NCBI GenBank assembly: GCA_945787445.1
Contig: CALZHT010000048.1
Location: 1-37,805 of the forward strand
DNA: 37,805 bases
Origin: an uncultured Desulfobulbaceae bacterium
Lineage (GTDB): Bacteria > Desulfobacterota > Desulfobulbia > Desulfobulbales > CALZHT01
Direction of reading: 5' to 3'
This document shows positions 24,425-33,802 of the stretch, in pieces (within the stretch, counting starts at the first letter, position 1; each line of letters begins with the position of its first letter). The notes beneath the pieces are model-generated. The model searched no databases. It had not been told where the DNA came from and saw only the letters and a list, made by a program, of their open reading frames with translations. The translations under genes and the position numbers were made by a program.

Positions 24425-26284
24425 TCAAACGGATTCATTCTCCACATCGCCCACCGGCAAAAGCACGGTTACCTTGGTGTATTCCCCTTCCTTGCTTTCC
24501 AAAAGGAGTTTGCCGTCATGGTCGGCAATAATGCCATGGCTGATAGCCAAGCCAAGGCCGGTGCCGGTACCTGCCGGCTTTGTTGAAAAAAACGGATTCA
24601 TTATCTTATCAATAATGCTTGCCGGTATACCGGTTCCCTGGTCATGGAAATCAAAAGTAATAAAAGGCCGACCATCAATGCTTTCCTGCCGGGCCGTCAC
24701 CATAAGAATCTTGTCAGGACTGACACCATCGAATTTCTTGTTGAGGGCATACCGCGCGTTGTTGAGGATATTTAGAAACACTTGCTGGATCTGCTGGGAC
24801 TGGGCCAAAATCGGCGGCAATTCCGCCGGTATATCAAGCCTTAGGTCAATACCTTCTTTTTTGATTTGCGTTTCTGCCAAGGCAAGAGTGTCAACCAAAA
24901 TATCCTTCACCGTCACCAGATCTTTATCCGTATCACTTTCACGGGCAAAGGAAAGGAGGCTGCTGACAATGGTTGATACCCTGTCACCCTCCTTGATTAT
25001 GCGCTGAGGAATCTCATCGGTAATCGTTCCGCCACTCTCGATTTCATCAATTAAAAGCTGGGAAAAGTTGATAATGCCATTTATGGGATTATTGATCTCA
25101 TGGGCAACACCGGCGGCAAGTTCACCGAGAGAAGCGAGGTGTCCGGCACGAACCGCCTCTTCCTGGAGGGTGATATCCTGGGCAACACATACTATTCCCT
25201 CGATCTCACCCGTATCATTGTGCATCACCGAGCTTGAAAAAAGAACGCGAATTTCCCGGCCGTCACTGGCAAGAAACGTTGTTTTCAAATTGCTGGTGAA
25301 TCCACTTCTGATCAATTTGTCGAGCCCGATTTCGGTAAAAAAACCTGCGGCAAAAAGGGTGGATACCGGATTACCGATCAAATCCTCTTCCCGATAACCA
25401 AGCAGATCACACGTTGCCCGGTTGACCGTCTTTATTTTTGAATCAGGCCCCACTACCACCAAAGAGTTGGTCATGGACCGGATTATATTATCGGCATAGG
25501 TCTTGGCAGCCAGAATCTCGTTTTGTGATTTCTTAACCCTTTCCGCCATGGTATTGAATGCATTAGCCAACTGGCCGATTTCATCATCCGATTCCACCTT
25601 AACCCTTACGGCCAGATCACCTTCCGCCACCCTCTTGGTCCCTTCAACCAAATGTTTAATCGGTTTTTCCAACGCCCTGGCCATGAAAACGGCAACAACA
25701 ACCGTGGCGATCACGGCAAGCAATAGGACCGCAGCGAGCAATTTTTGTGACAAATACGATATTTTTAATATGCCATGGTTTTTTTCGGCAATGCGGTTGC
25801 TAATATAGGATGCAGCGCCTCGCCCCATTTCGGCGATATCTTCTACGGTCTGAATAACTATTTCTTCCATCTCCTTGGCGGATGCCCCGCCTCTATACCC
25901 TTCCCGCACTTCCGACTCAAAGGCATAGATTGCATGGCGCAGTTTTTTGGCGGTATCGGAAATTTCAGCGATGGTGGCAAGCTCTTCTTCATCGTTTGTG
26001 ATTTTCTTAATGGAATCAATTTCTCTGATCAGTCTGTTAATCAGGAGATCTACGGGCGCGACCACTTCGCTTCTGCCTAACCTGTAGTCATATAGACTGT
26101 CTTTGGCATCCGAGACAATTTCAGCGATGTCGTACCATTTCCGTAATTTCACCTGATCAGAAGTAATGATGCTGGAAAGCTGCCTGGAGCTTCGGGACAT
26201 GATATCGAACGCAAAAACACTCTCCAGAAATATGATGGCCAACAGAATGAACAGACCGGTATTTCTTATTGCGCGATAGGACAT
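24425..26284 (-). CDS. Membrane histidine kinase: sensor-HAMP-PAS-HisKA-HATPase
   Basis: 619 residues from the ATG at 26284. A TTG frame 4 codons longer is possible; neither has a strong ribosome-binding site. It has a membrane segment at ~8-25, a helical periplasmic region of ~150 residues, a second membrane segment at ~175-195, HAMP (~196-250), and PAS (~265-370, with SLVVVGPDSKIKTVNRATCDLLGY, partly shown). HisKA has H395 (GVAHEINNPINGI) and the ATPase has DQGTGIP and [14 protein letters not shown]. There is no receiver domain, so it needs an external response regulator; none is adjacent. It is the last gene of the minus-strand sensory cluster, 33 bp after the second PhnD-like gene, an arrangement that mirrors the [PhnD + kinase] pair upstream. 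Confidence 0.92.
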   Translation of the reverse strand: MSYRAIRNTGLFILLAIIFLESVFAFDIMSRSSRQLSSIITSDQVKLRKWYDIAEIVSDAKDSLYDYRLGRSEVVAPVDLLINRLIREIDSIKKITNDEEELATIAEISDTAKKLRHAIYAFESEVREGYRGGASAKEMEEIVIQTVEDIAEMGRGAASYISNRIAEKNHGILKISYLSQKLLAAVLLLAVIATVVVAVFMARALEKPIKHLVEGTKRVAEGDLAVRVKVESDDEIGQLANAFNTMAERVKKSQNEILAAKTYADNIIRSMTNSLVVVGPDSKIKTVNRATCDLLGYREEDLIGNPVSTLFAAGFFTEIGLDKLIRSGFTSNLKTTFLASDGREIRVLFSSSVMHNDTGEIEGIVCVAQDITLQEEAVRAGHLASLGELAAGVAHEINNPINGIINFSQLLIDEIESGGTITDEIPQRIIKEGDRVSTIVSSLLSFARESDTDKDLVTVKDILVDTLALAETQIKKEGIDLRLDIPAELPPILAQSQQIQQVFLNILNNARYALNKKFDGVSPDKILMVTARQESIDGRPFITFDFHDQGTGIPASIIDKIMNPFFSTKPAGTGTGLGLAISHGIIADHDGKLLLESKEGEYTKVTVLLPVGDVENESV

Positions 26285-26317
26285 AAGGGTAAACAATTAC
26301 GAGGGAAGAATATAGCG

Positions 26318-27232
26318 TTAATAAGGATAGCTCTTTAAATCAATATTGAGGTCTTTCACCATTTTGTAAAGGGAATCGTAATCCTCATCTTTTGTTGCAA
26401 TAAATTTCCGGGCGCCAAACTGCTTGAGCACCTGTCTGCCCTCTTTGGTGGCATCAAGATTTAACAGGAGATCACGCAGGTGAAGCTTCAATGTCGGGTC
26501 CAGATCCTTTCTGACGGCAAGGCCATTGGATGGCACCTGGGGAGATTCCGCCAGGACCGCCATCTTGTGCTTAAAATCCGGATACTCTTTTGCCAAGGCG
26601 TTAAAGATATGATTTTTCCCGCCGCCGACATCCGCCTCCCCTATATAAACGGCCCAGGCCGATGCATCATGGCTGCCGGCGTAATAAATATCCGAAAAAA
26701 AACCATCCAAATTTGTAATACCGTGATTCTTGAAATAAGCGAGCTGGAACACATAACCCGCTGTTGTTGCCTTATCGACCAGGACCAGGCATTTGTTGCG
26801 CATGTCCTTAACAGACTGGATGGCGCTGTCTTTTCTGACAAAAATATAGCCGCTGTAAGTGGAACTGCCGTCCGGCCAGACAGGACGGGCAACAGGCTCG
26901 ACATGTGCCTTGGCATTGGTAAGAACATAGCTGAAGCTGCCAAAGAATCCCATATCCGCCGAACCCTCGGTAAAGGCATCGCTTATTTTCCCGTAACTCG
27001 ACATGATGTCTATCTTGATAGCGGTGTTGAGATTTTTGGACAGATATTCAGTAATATACCTGTATCTTCTTTTTTGCTCGAAAACGTTCTTTTCCGGAAC
27101 CAGGGCCAGATGCAACTCTTGTGCGCCTGCAGAGGTTTTGTCATATTGCCGGGCAAGGCTATCTGAACATGGGATAAGGGAACTGCTGAAGACAAAGAAA
27201 AGTATCGATAATGTGCCGAATAACCGGATCAT
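26318..27232 (-). CDS. PhnD-like periplasmic substrate-binding protein (sensory, copy 1)
   Basis: 304 residues with a signal peptide (cleavage after ~28, SLARQ). The PhnD/phosphonate-binding family is recognised by LHLALVPEKNVFEQ, STYSGYIFVRKDS, VDKATTAGYVF and AGSHDA. No ABC transporter permease or ATPase is nearby. Instead the gene overlaps the upstream heme-domain gene by 3 bp (ATGA type) and is followed 33 bp later by a histidine kinase. By analogy with AioX, a PhnD-family arsenite-binding protein that works with the kinase AioS, it is probably a ligand-binding co-sensor. The ligand cannot be told from sequence; phosphonate, phosphite or another oxyanion are all possible. Confidence 0.9.
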   Translation of the reverse strand: MIRLFGTLSILFFVFSSSLIPCSDSLARQYDKTSAGAQELHLALVPEKNVFEQKRRYRYITEYLSKNLNTAIKIDIMSSYGKISDAFTEGSADMGFFGSFSYVLTNAKAHVEPVARPVWPDGSSTYSGYIFVRKDSAIQSVKDMRNKCLVLVDKATTAGYVFQLAYFKNHGITNLDGFFSDIYYAGSHDASAWAVYIGEADVGGGKNHIFNALAKEYPDFKHKMAVLAESPQVPSNGLAVRKDLDPTLKLHLRDLLLNLDATKEGRQVLKQFGARKFIATKDEDYDSLYKMVKDLNIDLKSYPY

Positions 27233-28143
27233 GGTGCATTTCCTTTCAGGCTGTCAACGAAATGCAGAGACAAACTTTCCCCAACATCTCCCCTGCCGAA
27301 TAAGGGTTGGGTCAGGGCGGGATTACTCTTACGGCCTGCTATTTCATACCTGGAAACACCGAACTGATATGTAATATCCGTATCAAACTGGATGTCGTCA
27401 ATATTGCCGGTATGAAGGGCCCGGGCAAACTCAATAGTCCAGAAACCGCCTTGCCACACGCCCTTGGCCTGCACATCGGCACGGCTTCCTAAAGGTGTCC
27501 GGTGCTTATAACGGGGGATTTTGTCACCTGCATGTTTCACTTGTAAATTAATGTAATACGCCCCTCTTCCACCATCTTCCTGGCGTACCAGATACATCGT
27601 TTTACCTGTTCTGCTTGAAAGCACGTTGGCATCGTGAATCTCGGTTGCCCCAAGAGTATGCATTTTATCGTCGGCATATCCCATGGGATCTGTTCTGCAG
27701 GCCTTCCAATACCAGATATCTGCCACATAGGGCTCATCACCGTAAATACTCAAATCAACGGGTTTTGATTGCATATTCCATTTGAAAATAAACACATCTT
27801 CCCGCTCATTACCCATACCATATATTTGCCTGCCTTTGTCCCAGGTCCATGATTTATGTTCTCGGGATTCATCCGGGTCAGGGAAACGGACCAGAAAAAA
27901 TACTTGATCAGCGGTATAAACACTTGCGATGGATATATCCATATCTGCGACCGGGTCACGGACGTTTATCGGCAAGGCATCTTGCCAAACAGGCTCCGTG
28001 CCTCTGCCGTCAATTACCGGCGTATTGGGTACTTTGACTGACTGCAGGTTCTGCCCGGCTCGGCAATTGCCTGAAAAAACTTGCGCAACAGATAAGAGAG
28101 CAGCCAACACCCACCCATATGTAACAAACCTGTTATGTTTCAT
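27229..28143 (-). CDS. Ethylbenzene dehydrogenase-type heme-binding domain protein
   Basis: 304 residues from the ATG at 28143; in-frame ATG 28152 and TTG 28179 are alternatives and none has a clear ribosome-binding site. A signal peptide (~1-29) predicts periplasmic location. The mature protein resembles the EB_dh family (PF09459, gamma-type heme b subunit of DMSO-reductase-family enzymes): VPNTPVIDGRGTEPVWQDA, then AVYT/FFLVRFPDPDE, a DKMHTLGATEIHDANV block, GVWQGGFWTIEFAR and FGVSRYEI. It has no CxxCH, so no covalent heme. It stands within the sensory cluster, with no molybdopterin or iron-sulfur subunit beside it. A role in redox sensing or electron transfer is likely but not proven. Confidence 0.8.
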   Translation of the reverse strand: MKHNRFVTYGWVLAALLSVAQVFSGNCRAGQNLQSVKVPNTPVIDGRGTEPVWQDALPINVRDPVADMDISIASVYTADQVFFLVRFPDPDESREHKSWTWDKGRQIYGMGNEREDVFIFKWNMQSKPVDLSIYGDEPYVADIWYWKACRTDPMGYADDKMHTLGATEIHDANVLSSRTGKTMYLVRQEDGGRGAYYINLQVKHAGDKIPRYKHRTPLGSRADVQAKGVWQGGFWTIEFARALHTGNIDDIQFDTDITYQFGVSRYEIAGRKSNPALTQPLFGRGDVGESLSLHFVDSLKGNAP

Positions 28144-28266
28144 ACCGGACATGGTATCTATTGGATTACTAACAAACAAGGAAATAATAGAAGTACACTG
28201 GGCGGGAGGATGGAATTCATCCTGATTTTTTCTTAAAAGTTACGGATTAACAGCAGCTTCGTACTG

Positions 28267-30696
28267 CTAGTTTATGTCCCCCAAAACCTCAACGATTTTA
28301 AGGGTTATATCCTCAAGGCTGAAAGGTTTCAACATGTATCCATCGGCGCCGCTTTCTACCAATTCGCTTGCCGCGCCGTTAAATCCATAGCCGGTGGCAA
28401 CAAGAACTTTTAGGCCCGGCTTAATTTCCTTCATGCTGCTGAATGCATCTCTGCCATCCATAATCGGCATGTTTATATCCAGGATGGCGAGATCAATATC
28501 CATGTTCTCTGAAAGTGTATTTATGGCCTCTTCGCCGTTGGCAGCCACTAAGACTCTGCACCCCATATTCTGCAAATGCTCCTTGAGCATAGTGGTGATG
28601 ACCACCTCATCATCAATAATCATTATTTTTTTTCTGATTTCCTGGCCGGATGAAATGGAGATCATTTTTTCTTTAAATGATTCCTCATACACCGGAAGAT
28701 AAATGGTAAAGGTGGTCCCCTTTTCAGGTGTACTTTCAATATCGCAAACCCCATTATGACTCTTTATGATCCCGTAGGCGATGGCAAGACCCAGACCGGT
28801 TCCCTTGCCAAACTCTTTTGTTGTGAAAAAGGGCTCAAAAATCCGACTGAGAACTTCATCGCTCATACCGGTACCCTCGTCTGAAACTTGCAGTACTATA
28901 TAGTCTTCCGGCATAGCATCTGGGTGGGATAAGCAAAATTCATCATCCAGCGTTTGCAGATCAGTCTTAATTGTTAAAGTTCCGCCCTTGGGCATGGCAT
29001 CACGGGCATTGACGCATAAATTCATCACTACCTGTTCAAGCTGGGTGGTGTCTCCCTGAACAAATGGCAATGACTCGGGAAGTTCCAGTTTAATAGTGAT
29101 CAATTTGCTGATGGTATTTTCAAAAAGTGCGATAACATTATTAACCACTTCATTAATATTCACCGGTTCAATGGCCAGTACATTGCGGCGTGCAAAAGTG
29201 AGCAGCTGTTTTGTAAGGTTGGCAGCCCTGAATCCCGCTTTTTCAACAGTATCAAGCATTTTATAGGCTTTTTCGTCGGTAGAATGTCCTCTTTTCAGCA
29301 GGGAGATGTTTCCTATCATGCCGCACAAAATATTATTGAAATCATGGGCAACGCCGCCTGCCAAAGTGCCAAGGGCAGTGAGTTTTTCCGCTTCAAAGAG
29401 CTGCTGCTGGGTCCTTTGCAGCTCTTCCATCTGGTTGTGAAGACTTTTATATAACTCGGTATTATCAAGGGCTACGGCAATATTATTTGCGATGATGCCG
29501 AAAATGTTGCGGTCCTCTTCATGAAAATCACCCTGTTTTTTATTGATTACTATCAAGGCGCCGGTAAGTTCGTTCTCATGCCGCAACCAGGCTATGAGAT
29601 AATTCTTGAGGGACACTTCCTCAAATTTCACCCCAAAAGGCCAGCCAATATTCTCGGCTTCGTTGACCATTATGGGAAGGCCTTTATTTTTATGATACAC
29701 ATTCATGACCTCATGGATCGGAACCTCAGTGGTTGCAGAAAAAGCAGACGATCCTTCCAACGAACCGGAACAATTCAAGACAAAATGTTGAAGGGTATCA
29801 TGGAGCATCATGATGCCCTGTATTTCCACCTCAATAAGGTCATTTACCGACCTGCCAAGATTCTGAAGAATGCTGGTCCTTGAATGGGAAGCATGGAGCG
29901 GCAGGGTCAAATAGTTTAATTGGGTCAGCCTTTCCAAGGTGTTCTGTATTCTTCCATCCTTGTCTGCCAAGGAGGTGCTCATTCTGTTAAATGATTCTAT
30001 CAATTGACCGAACTCGGCCTTTGCTTGATAGTGGGATCTATAGCCCAAAGCGCCCTCGGTTATTTTTTGGGCGGCTTTCAGAAGTTCAAAAATCGGTACT
30101 GTAACAGCTCTGGTCAGAAAACGTGCCGCCAACAGAGCTATGAGAAAGGTTGACAGGAGAGTAAGCCCAAGAACCCTGTAAGACCTATCAATTTTGCGCA
30201 TGGCATCGGAGGTTCTTTTCTGGAGAGTGGCAGCGGCCCTGTTCACCATTTCCTCGGTTCGCAAAATAATCTCTTTTCCCGTCCGCCCAACCGCTTCCTT
30301 ATACTCCTCGCGCCATGCTCCCGCACTGACCGTGGTGATCAAATTGGAGAGTTGTTGCTCAAATAATGCGATAGACGCTTCGGCTTGGTCAATCTCCTCC
30401 ATCACCGGAGGTTCATGGTGGCATTGATGACACTCATCAATCGTGCTATTGACCCGTAGAGCGCTTTCAATTATTTCATCCAGCCGGTCTGCAAATACCT
30501 GGGGAGAGGCAAAGGTATACGCTTCAATTTTCTGGACGTTGTAGCTCAGTTTCTGACGGATATCTTCTATCTCGTGCAGACTGATAAGGTCGTGCAACTC
30601 GGAAGTGGTTACCAGGAGATTGAAAACCGTCACCCCGGCGCCAATGGAAAAAAGGCTAAAAATGAGAATTATCGTGGTTATAATCTGTTTCTTCAT
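28267..30696 (-). CDS. Hybrid histidine kinase with a c-type heme motif in its periplasmic sensor domain
   Basis: 809 residues. Membrane segment 1 is at ~6-28. The periplasmic helical domain (~30-180) contains C89-H-Q-C92-H93, a CxxCH covalent heme site. Membrane segment 2 is at ~182-201, followed by HAMP (~200-252), a GAF-like domain (~270-420), HisKA with H451 ([17 protein letters not shown]), HATPase ([20 protein letters not shown]) and a C-terminal receiver with D740 ([12 protein letters not shown]). Its start shares one base with the stop of the PhnD-like gene 30696-31601 (TAATG), so translation is coupled. The heme suggests sensing of redox state or a gaseous or oxidised ligand, integrated with the periplasmic binding protein. 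No Hpt domain or DNA-binding regulator is nearby. Confidence 0.93.
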
Positions 30697-31601
30697 TAAT
30701 TGGTGTAGCGATACTCATCCAGACTGATACCTGCTTCATCAGCCATATCAATTACCGGTTGATAATCTTTAACAGCAGTTTCAACAAACCGGTGCGCCCC
30801 GAATTTTTGCAGGACATTTTTCCCCTTGGGATCGTTATGAATAGTAAGGAGAGCTTCTTTAAGTTTTGACTTCAGATCAGAATTCATGGAAGAAATAACA
30901 CAAAGCCCGTTAGAAGGAACGCGTGGTGAACTTTCCAGAATGACTACTTCTTTTTCTAGCCGGGGCTCGTTTTCTTTAATCCTGTCATAGATCGTGTTTT
31001 TGGCGGCTCCCACATCCGCCTTGCCGTTAAGAACGGCAAAGATGGCGGCATCATGGCTGCCTGAAAAATAGTGGTCCTTGAAATAGGTATCAATATCTTT
31101 TACACCATTCCTTTTAAAATAGGCGCTGGGGAAAATATATCCTGCGGTGGTGGCGCGCTCAACCATAACAAGAATCTTGTCTTTCATGTCGGCAACATCC
31201 TTGATTCCACTGTCCTTTCGCACAAAAATATGGCCGAAATATGTTGAGGTGCCGTCAAGATTTATCGGCCTGGCAATGGGCTCCACCTTAAGCTGATGGA
31301 TGGCCAGGGTTCCGGTGAATGATCCCAGAAAAGCGCCATCCACCTTTTCTTTTTTTAGCCGGTCAATTATGTTGCCATAGCGACTCAGCATGGTGAGTCG
31401 CACCTTCACTCCTATTTTTTCAGAAAGATACTGCGCCAAGGGATCAAAACGCTGCCGCTGCTTGAATACATTCATTTCAGGAAGCAGGCCAATACGGATC
31501 TCATCCATGGCAGCAGCTGAAATTTGCGGCAGCAGCAGTAAAAAAATAACAGCGGCTGCTGAAATCCATCTAAAGAAATATTTTGTAAGTCTTGACTGCA
31601 T
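30696..31601 (-). CDS. PhnD-like periplasmic substrate-binding protein (sensory, copy 2)
   Basis: 301 residues with a signal peptide (~1-31, LPQISAAA). PhnD-family motifs are IRIGLLPEMNVFKQ, STYFGHIFVRKDS, ERATTAGYIF and SGSHDA. It is a paralogue of the protein at 26318-27232, with the same motif order. The ATG at 31601 has AGGGAGA about 8 bases upstream. It is the first gene of the sensory cluster, translationally coupled to the heme-c hybrid kinase. No transporter partners are present. As for copy 1, an AioX-like co-sensor role is inferred. The promoter should lie in the 450-bp upstream region shared with the YcaO gene. Confidence 0.9.
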   Translation of the reverse strand: MQSRLTKYFFRWISAAAVIFLLLLPQISAAAMDEIRIGLLPEMNVFKQRQRFDPLAQYLSEKIGVKVRLTMLSRYGNIIDRLKKEKVDGAFLGSFTGTLAIHQLKVEPIARPINLDGTSTYFGHIFVRKDSGIKDVADMKDKILVMVERATTAGYIFPSAYFKRNGVKDIDTYFKDHYFSGSHDAAIFAVLNGKADVGAAKNTIYDRIKENEPRLEKEVVILESSPRVPSNGLCVISSMNSDLKSKLKEALLTIHNDPKGKNVLQKFGAHRFVETAVKDYQPVIDMADEAGISLDEYRYTN

Positions 31602-32053: not shown

Positions 32054-33802
32054 ATGAAAAAAACACCAATACGCCTGCAGGACTCCTTCAAAACGTACAC
32101 CTATGATCAGGATAAGGTCTGCACACCGGTTGAAACCGTTGCAAAGTTCAAAGAACGCCTCAAAACAGTGGATCTGGACATCCTCAAAGAAGTACGCCGT
32201 ATTGACAACGGCCGCCTGGATATCCCTATTTATTTCAGTGTATGCGGTAAAGACGCTCTTGAAACCATCGGCAATAAAAAGCAAATGGGCAAAGGAAGCA
32301 CCCCTGAACAGTCGCAGGCCAGTGCATGCATGGAACTGGCAGAGCGTTTCAGCTTTTTCAGCTTCAAGAAAAATCCCGACAATTTTATTACCGATACGTA
32401 CGCCAATTTAAAAGCTGCCGGGCAACCGCTCATGCCCCTTGAGCAGATTCTCCAATCGGTGCATGATGAATCCACCAGCGTCGAAGTCCTTGAAAAACTC
32501 CTGGCTGACATTCCTATCCAGTGGACCTGGGCTACCAACCTGAACAGGCAGGAGGAATTCCTCATCCCCTTCAGCTGGTTCTATGCCATTAATGAGTTTA
32601 ACGGGCCCTCGGCCGGTAACACCTATGAAGAAGCGATCGTACAGGGCATCTGCGAAATTATCGAACGACATGTCTGCGCCCTGGTTAGCCACAAAAAAAT
32701 CAAAGTCCCTGCCATTGACCTTGCCACGATCAAGGACCAGGTGGCCAGACAACTTCTTACCAAATATACCAAGAATGGTGTGGCGATGTATCTCAATGAT
32801 TTCACCTTGGATACCGGTATCCCTACCATTGGCGCTCTTGCCATTGATTACAGCACATTCCCTGAAACCAGTGAAATAGTGTACACGGCCGGCACCACCC
32901 CCAATCCCGACAAGGCCTTGATCAGGGCGCTTACCGAAGTGGCCCAGCTTGCCGGCGATTTCAACACAAAGGCTAACTATGTTGCCAGTGGATTACCTAA
33001 ACCCTTAAGCATGGATGAAGTGGACTATCTGACAGACCCGGGCTCCGCGGTGCAGATCGACCAATTACCGGATGCCGGCGACCACAACTTGAAGAATGAG
33101 ATTGAAAACTGTCTCACCGCCCTCGAAAAAATCAATATGGAAGTTTACATTGTCAATACAATGCACCCTGATCTGCAGGTAGCGACAATTTACACGATCA
33201 TTCCAGGGGCGCACTTCAGGGAACGTTCCATGATCCAGAATGTCGGCCTTTTTGCCGCAAAATTGGTCGCAGAGCGCATTACCGATCCTGTTGAGTCCAC
33301 CCAAAGGCTACGGGATATGGAAAAGATTCTCCCTGATGCCTACTACATCGAATTCTACCTGGGCCGCAATCTCATTGCCCTTGGATCACATGAAGAAGCA
33401 TTGGCACATTTACAGAGGGCGCTGCAGCTCAATCCTGAAGAGGAGGACATCCCCTACATCTATTCCTTCATGGGTGATTGTCTCAAGGATTTGGGGAAAT
33501 ATGATGAAGCCATCACTATCCTCAAAAAAGGTACGGATTTGGATGAAGAAAGGCCTGACCTCCACAACTTGCTTGGATTCTGCAATTTCAAGCTCCAGGA
33601 CTATGAAACAGCGGTCAAACATTTCACCCGGGCAGTGGAGTTGACCCCTTCATCCGCTATTGATTATGCAAACCTTGGGGTGAATTACAAATACCTTGGC
33701 AAGAATGAGGAAGCCATAAAAAATTTCGAACTGGCCCTGGCCTTGGACAAGTCCCTGGATTTCGCCCGCTCACACCTTGAACAGCTCACGGCAAACGGCT
33801 GA
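32054..33802 (+). CDS. YcaO-family protein with C-terminal TPR repeats
   Basis: 582 residues. YcaO proteins use ATP to activate amide backbones, giving azoline or thioamide groups. The predicted nucleotide-binding helices are MGKGSTPEQSQASACMELAER (from 78; shown here as a family landmark) and EEAIVQGICEIIERH (192-206). A third conserved block is IIPGAHFRERSMIQNVG. From ~430 to 575 there are about four TPR units (ALAHLQRALQLNP, EAITILKKGTDLD, TAVKHFTRAVELTP, EAIKNFELALALD), which probably bind a partner protein. No TfuA, precursor peptide or dehydrogenase gene is adjacent, so a RiPP cluster is not indicated. A GAGGG site precedes the ATG at 32054, and a strong bidirectional terminator follows. 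Confidence 0.92.
   Translation: MKKTPIRLQDSFKTYTYDQDKVCTPVETVAKFKERLKTVDLDILKEVRRIDNGRLDIPIYFSVCGKDALETIGNKKQMGKGSTPEQSQASACMELAERFSFFSFKKNPDNFITDTYANLKAAGQPLMPLEQILQSVHDESTSVEVLEKLLADIPIQWTWATNLNRQEEFLIPFSWFYAINEFNGPSAGNTYEEAIVQGICEIIERHVCALVSHKKIKVPAIDLATIKDQVARQLLTKYTKNGVAMYLNDFTLDTGIPTIGALAIDYSTFPETSEIVYTAGTTPNPDKALIRALTEVAQLAGDFNTKANYVASGLPKPLSMDEVDYLTDPGSAVQIDQLPDAGDHNLKNEIENCLTALEKINMEVYIVNTMHPDLQVATIYTIIPGAHFRERSMIQNVGLFAAKLVAERITDPVESTQRLRDMEKILPDAYYIEFYLGRNLIALGSHEEALAHLQRALQLNPEEEDIPYIYSFMGDCLKDLGKYDEAITILKKGTDLDEERPDLHNLLGFCNFKLQDYETAVKHFTRAVELTPSSAIDYANLGVNYKYLGKNEEAIKNFELALALDKSLDFARSHLEQLTANG

Follow-up and report, generated by a model that had tools for sequence, protein, structure and literature searches.

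The window, a 37,805-nt stretch of contig CALZHT010000048.1 from an uncultured Desulfobulbaceae bacterium (assembly GCA_945787445.1; 4.46 Mb, 227 contigs), contains five consecutive genes on the minus strand, in the order PhnD1, HK1, EB_dh, PhnD2 and HK2 (Table 1). ORF reading and Pfam showed all five frames to be intact, in agreement with the order and coordinates given in the original prediction. The heme c motif of HK1 reads CHQCHH. HK2 has a periplasmic four-helix bundle of about 150 aa and lacks a receiver domain (REC). EB_dh is the only PF09459 protein of the whole assembly, with a score of 68.3 bits against the curated cut-off of 33.3; likelier ATG starts of its gene lie 27 or 36 nt downstream of the TTG, at about 28152 or 28143.

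The genes PhnD1 and HK1 overlap by 1 nt and EB_dh and PhnD2 by 4 nt, while PhnD2 and HK2 are separated by 21 nt. The sole long gap of the cluster, which extends to 114–123 nt if counted to the likelier ATG starts, coincides with the boundary between module A (PhnD1 and HK1) and module B (EB_dh, PhnD2 and HK2).

Table 1. Features of the sensory gene cluster, in window coordinates
Feature	Position	Strand	Description
PhnD1	30696-31601	-	301 aa; PF12974, E 3.4e-61; periplasmic binding protein of module A
HK1	28267-30696	-	809 aa; hybrid histidine kinase of module A; periplasmic helical region with CxxCHH heme c motif, HAMP, weak GAF, HisKA, HATPase, REC (Pfam)
HK1/EB_dh gap	28180-28266	-	87 nt; boundary of modules A and B; short palindrome at 28207-28223
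EB_dh	27229-28179	-	316 aa from TTG; PF09459, E 1.3e-18; exported; putative input protein of module B
PhnD2	26318-27232	-	304 aa; PF12974, E 1.4e-60; periplasmic binding protein of module B
HK2	24425-26296	-	623 aa; histidine kinase with HAMP, PAS, HisKA, HATPase (Pfam)

A gene for a YcaO-TPR fusion protein (32054-33802) is located divergently from PhnD1, and this neighbourhood is kept in the related genomes G001 and G002. Loci L045 and L046 represent further PhnD–kinase pairs; in the latter (L046:4697-6470, contig C62 of the same genome, G000), a tandem of PhnD domains, which a frameshift appears to have split, is encoded upstream of another kinase.

Independent conservation of modules A and B

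The cluster consists of two neighbouring sensory modules, each conserved on its own. Adjacency of modules A and B was seen in this genome only, apart from the decayed remnant of HK2 that occupies this site in G002, a genome of the same family; accordingly, the five-gene order, whose conservation in related genomes was checked as the original prediction proposed, is not conserved. Both modules are present in G035, G050 and G010, on different contigs. The genome G001 contains YcaO-PhnD1-HK1 without module B, and in order relatives (L029, L030, L032, L033, L034 and L037) EB_dh is followed by PhnD and then by an HK2-type kinase.

In a tree of 49 PhnD proteins, all 17 EB_dh-linked sequences form one clade (support 98/91), and all 29 sequences linked to heme c receptors form a separate one (support 89/85). 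PhnD1 belongs to the latter, whose genes lie upstream of the receptors, and PhnD2 to the former, whose genes lie directly downstream of EB_dh. A recent tandem duplication of a PhnD–HK pair within the cluster is ruled out by this tree. The description of the locus as a doubled module therefore had to be abandoned, since the two PhnDs belong to separate clades and the modules occur apart in other genomes.

The site in G002 is flanked as in the window, by genes of arginine decarboxylase, a radical SAM protein and TraF_2 on one side and YcaO on the other. HK1 and PhnD1 are kept there, EB_dh and PhnD2 were not found at this site, and in their place lies a 76-aa open frame corresponding to the C-terminal end of HK2 (71% identity). 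Accordingly, HK2 was formerly present at this site and was lost while module A stayed; presumably, G002 once held all of module B there.

Two independent periplasmic-protein-coupled receptor modules, standing side by side, is the reading preferred here, with a probability of about 0.7. One integrated five-gene sensor of redox state and solute, in which both kinases and EB_dh cooperate, appears improbable. The collinearity of the five genes, the pairing of a PhnD with a receptor in both modules and the relic in G002, according to which the arrangement predates this genome, speak for such a sensor, but the modules are located on different contigs in three genomes, module B has gone from G002 with module A kept, the two PhnDs belong to different clades, and the longest intergenic gap falls exactly between the modules. 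Far less probable still is a role of PhnD1 and PhnD2 in a phosphonate/phosphite ABC transporter encoded elsewhere, with the adjacency to kinases arising by chance. Both proteins belong to PF12974 and TIGR01098, and their nearest solved relatives include PtxB; however, no PhnE permease (TIGR01097) above the cut-off is encoded in the genome (best weak hit 1.6e-8), and adjacency of PhnD and receptor genes is conserved in both PhnD clades. Against the equivalog TIGR03431, the two proteins score 196 and 166 bits, below the cut-off of 261. The sensory, not transport-related, assignment made in the original prediction is thus retained, and, of the PhnCDE transporter named there as contrary evidence, the permease PhnE was searched for and gave no match above the cut-off.

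PhnD proteins and the heme c kinase of module A

Residues Y46, Y91, T121, T122 and H152 of the ligand pocket (PtxB numbering) are present in both window PhnDs, with S123 replaced by Ala. Judging from these residues, the ligand is likely an oxyanion or a phosphonate-like compound. Similar to the systems AioX/AioS, ArrX and ArxX (PMC5908839), a PhnD-fold periplasmic protein is encoded here together with a histidine kinase and without a transporter; the analogy with AioX/AioS drawn earlier is apt. The window differs from these systems by Gly at the equivalent of AioX Cys106 in both PhnDs (placed via PhnD Gly65), by Ala at that of Ser163, by the additional EB_dh in module B and by the predicted covalent heme of the module A receptor. 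An AioX-type arsenite site is unlikely. The window PhnDs are also comparable to the PhnD-like module of TtrS and ThsS (PMC5408782), which senses a respiratory oxyanion; there, the PhnD domain is part of the kinase, whereas the window PhnDs are separate proteins.

Homologues of the HK1 sensor region were found in 41 of 96 relatives, and at 29 of the 30 loci read, the window included, a PhnD gene is located directly upstream of the CxxCH receptor gene. The outputs of these receptors are kinase, hybrid kinase or GGDEF-EAL. The CxxCHH motif and the histidine of an LH[EKQ] motif are present in every aligned HK1-type receptor; the latter histidine could be the other heme ligand. Within the cluster, covalent heme is supported by motif for HK1 only. 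The sensor region of HK1 gave no Pfam match, DUF3365 is absent from the Pfam hits of HK1 with E of at most 0.1, and the region appears helical from its sequence. DcrA, GSU0582/GSU0935 and sCache_heme sensors (PMC8396549, PMC12889525) likewise have a periplasmic receptor domain with covalently bound heme c, but these are PAS-like or Cache folds by description, whereas the HK1 region looks helical and is paired with PhnD.

One branch of module A loci (L147, L148, L151-L153 and L157-L160) has a second gene of a periplasmic protein, which overlaps or abuts the PhnD gene; in L147, where it was tested, the product is ABC_sub_bind (PF04392), which places two different binding proteins ahead of the heme c kinase. 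In five related genomes, a gene for a protein of about 600–630 aa with five CxxCH motifs and weak cytochrome matches is located divergently from PhnD-HK1 (L163:4472-6307, L165:11254-13056, L171, L172 and L173). This protein may be a regulated target of module A.

EB_dh and its linkage to membrane receptors

The scan of 84,980 species genomes yielded 80 EB_dh loci, making 91 distinct genes together with those of the order relatives; these sequences are related by descent and were picked by similarity to the window EB_dh, and the counts cover its clade, not all of PF09459. The loci belong to Desulfobacterota, Omnitrophota, Nitrospirota, Proteobacteria, Magnetococcales, Gemmatimonadota, Campylobacterota, Rokubacteria, Planctomycetota and others. 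A gene of a transmembrane receptor on the same strand follows EB_dh immediately, after an intervening PhnD, or as second gene at 74 of approximately 84 loci with readable downstream sequence: among the 91 genes, 54 have the receptor next, 16 have PhnD and then the receptor, and four have the receptor second. HAMP/MCP genes make up 13 of the 672 remaining genes of these loci. The outputs of the receptors include histidine kinase, hybrid histidine kinase, MCP, GGDEF(-EAL) and HD-GYP. Among named isolates, Desulfosediminicola flagellatus IMCC35005 (L096) has the arrangement EB_dh-PhnD-hybrid kinase, and Malonomonas rubra DSM 5091 (L112) has EB_dh-GGDEF/EAL.

On the EB_dh tree, whose bootstrap had not fully settled, the class of the receptor periplasmic domain changes 6 times with three labels (compact 3, large 3; shuffled mean 22.4), the large class being heterogeneous, and the output class changes 13 times with four labels (shuffled mean 28.6). 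The EB_dh tree thus tracks the periplasmic class better than the output, as expected if the periplasmic domain is the target of EB_dh. Linkage and tree signal mark EB_dh of the sensory clade as a probable dedicated periplasmic input protein of membrane receptors; gene linkage does not prove contact of the products, which we infer from it. No paper on a link between EB_dh and receptors was found in the open-access literature (titles, abstracts and term counts).

Roughly ten EB_dh homologues lack a neighbouring receptor gene. Such orphan genes occur at L093, L107, L108, L117, L119, L121 and L129, where neighbours include RecQ and RadA-like genes (L093) and hydrogenase-maturation genes (L121). 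The wider PF09459 sample of the phylum consists mostly of other subfamilies, with some proteins fused to cytochrome c and some encoded beside MCP or sigma-54 regulator genes; the latter adjoin PF09459 genes at L190, L192 and L193. In Nitrospirota, a 1656-aa fusion of PhnD, PAS, kinase and receiver domains is encoded a few genes from module B (L058:574-5544).

In most EB_dh-linked receptors, the periplasmic region comprises some 150 residues and HAMP is found around residue 200; in others, HAMP is located near residue 320. For the compact periplasmic domain, no Pfam model was matched besides HAMP, with 4HB_MCP_1 reached by 4 of 45 members. An HMM trained on kinase members alone recognized the periplasmic domains of MCP members with E-values of 1e-28 to 1e-46, those of the HD-GYP protein of L062 and two similar proteins with 1e-23 to 1e-40, and that of one GGDEF member with 1e-25; the best value for the heme c bundles of module A was 2.5e-7, and large-class members score in between, partly via a shared N-terminal segment. 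The periplasmic domain of HK2, at about residues 30–185, is modelled as a four-helix bundle (pLDDT 92.9). Among solved structures, LytS-N from the XylFII-LytSN complex ranks first as a match to this domain (Z 17.9, 1.5 Å over 121 residues), a result to be read with caution, since four-helix bundles resemble many structures.

Among the 96 relatives, all strong hits of the HK2 domain (E < 1e-50) with enough upstream sequence have EB_dh-PhnD upstream. The genome G011, with a weaker hit, contains a PhnD/HK2-like pair without EB_dh; accordingly, EB_dh may be dispensable. At L029:4284-6218 and L030:13838-15751, another HAMP-PAS kinase, containing a single CxxCH motif, follows module B; its cytoplasmic part is 56–57% identical to that of HK2.

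The predicted structure of EB_dh (pLDDT 93.5) matches EbdC (2ivf_C; Z 19.1, 2.3 Å over 187) and NXR-C (7b04_C; Z 18.7, 3.2 Å over 206), with further matches to sugar-binding CBM9 modules (Z 13.4) and a domain of dopamine beta-hydroxylase (DOMON). Matches among PDB sequences came from profiles only; phmmer with the single EB_dh protein gave none. In EbdC and NXR-C, heme b is bound by Met and Lys (PMC8840923; PMC8387239), the axial ligands of NXR-C being Met155 and Lys305 (PMC8387239). The equivalent of the axial Met, position 146 according to hhalign, is F, Y, S, T, H or L in the 82 sequences of the sensory clade, and any Met in the loop 140–153 occurs in five of them. Lys305 corresponds to Gly297 (77/82) by motif comparison with enzyme-type members, in a stretch beyond the hhalign alignment with basic residues nearby in many sequences. 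Conserved in the clade are H108 (79/82) and M136 (74/82). M136 was rejected as the heme Met of EbdC and NXR-C, since hhalign puts that Met at 146; His108 and Met136 could provide another heme ligation. EB_dh thus shares fold, Pfam family and export with these gamma subunits (PMC8840923, PMC8387239) and differs from them in that the Met ligand and, as placed by motif, the Lys ligand are not conserved, and in adjoining a receptor. Genes of molybdoenzyme alpha and beta subunits are not adjacent to EB_dh, the neighbours of which in the window encode PhnD and kinases.

Two variants of the module B reading follow from the role given to this protein. As a periplasmic heme b protein of the EbdC/NXR-C kind, EB_dh would report redox state to HK2. 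The PF09459 hit and the fold matches to both heme proteins favour this, and the conserved H108 and M136 may offer another route to ligation, but the position of Met is variable, that of Lys, as placed by motif, is a conserved Gly, the fold is common to sugar-binding CBM9, and the neighbours are receptors and not molybdoenzyme subunits, so this variant is doubtful. As a non-heme solute-binding protein similar to CBM9 or DOMON, EB_dh would present a small molecule to the receptor; this variant, for which the odds fall somewhat short of even, is consistent with the CBM9 and DOMON matches, the apparent loss of the known heme ligands and the invariant residues W113, Y120, W156, W158, K159, R162 and D171, although the W-x-W-K motif is largely common to enzyme-type members of the family and may therefore be structural. 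On balance, heme binding by EB_dh is slightly less probable than its absence, and the earlier designation of EB_dh as a non-covalent heme protein is left unsupported, as the Met ligand and, by motif placement, the Lys ligand are not conserved in the clade.

The name of the EB_dh family (ethylbenzene dehydrogenase) points to hydrocarbon metabolism or electron transfer, whereas linkage and tree point to a sensory input clade. The sensory reading would give a testable role to many genes of uncultured anaerobes and a candidate input protein to orphan receptors; the set of EB_dh loci also allows one input family to be traced over kinase, chemotaxis and cyclic-di-GMP outputs.

Proposed mechanism and output of HK2

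With two independent modules, PhnD1 of module A would bind an oxyanion-like solute and dock on HK1 at its helical periplasmic domain; the predicted covalent heme c of HK1 would add redox or gas input, and HK1 would relay phosphate via its own receiver domain. In module B, the four-helix bundle in the periplasmic part of HK2 would be the target of both exported EB_dh and PhnD2, similar to the action of XylFII on LytS or of TorT on TorS. Receptors of this class would have EB_dh as their constant partner from phylum to phylum, and PhnD2 would be a lineage-specific addition. A tentative extension, held with less than even confidence, is that the EB_dh-fold clade represents an undescribed input class driving all main kinds of HAMP receptors via a matching periplasmic domain, with EB_dh and PhnD2 acting jointly on one bundle and HK2 reading two signals at once.

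In XylFII-LytS, TorT-TorS and LuxP-LuxQ (PMC6321045), a periplasmic binding protein works through the periplasmic domain of a kinase, as proposed here. Genes and models show that a helical-bundle receptor domain is encoded beside a periplasmic binding protein in the window, as in the XylFII-LytS type. In contrast to that type, the constant partner here has the EB_dh fold, and the same domain class is also found on MCP, GGDEF and HD-GYP outputs.

No response regulator gene adjoins HK2 in the window; the earlier observation that an output regulator is missing thus holds locally, but a candidate is encoded on another contig. In G035, a gene of an NtrC-type regulator adjoins EB_dh, alone and without Hmc-like genes. 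The best match of this regulator in the genome studied is G000:C30:26829-28595 (60% identity), the next best having 42%. In G050, G018, G057 and G062, module B is wholly or partly syntenic with this NtrC-type regulator and HmcA/B/C-like genes, being located downstream of some or all of the genes for the regulator, a pentaheme cytochrome, the HmcB-like and HmcC-like proteins and a kinase with PAS and GAF, the term Hmc-like denoting likeness only, as Hmc matches are below curated cut-offs. G011 has the same arrangement of regulator and Hmc-like genes with a PhnD–kinase pair, without EB_dh.

The NtrC-type regulator family is found in 59 of the 96 relatives. A regulator of so common a family was rejected as a specifically co-occurring partner; co-occurrence gives no support to the pairing, and it is synteny that does. 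On the strength of gene order, the partner of HK2, which would signal to a response regulator encoded elsewhere, is likely the NtrC-type sigma-54 activator on C30. In this genome, the regulator and Hmc-like genes are located together on C30, unlinked to module B, and the regulator may control these Hmc-like electron-transfer genes.
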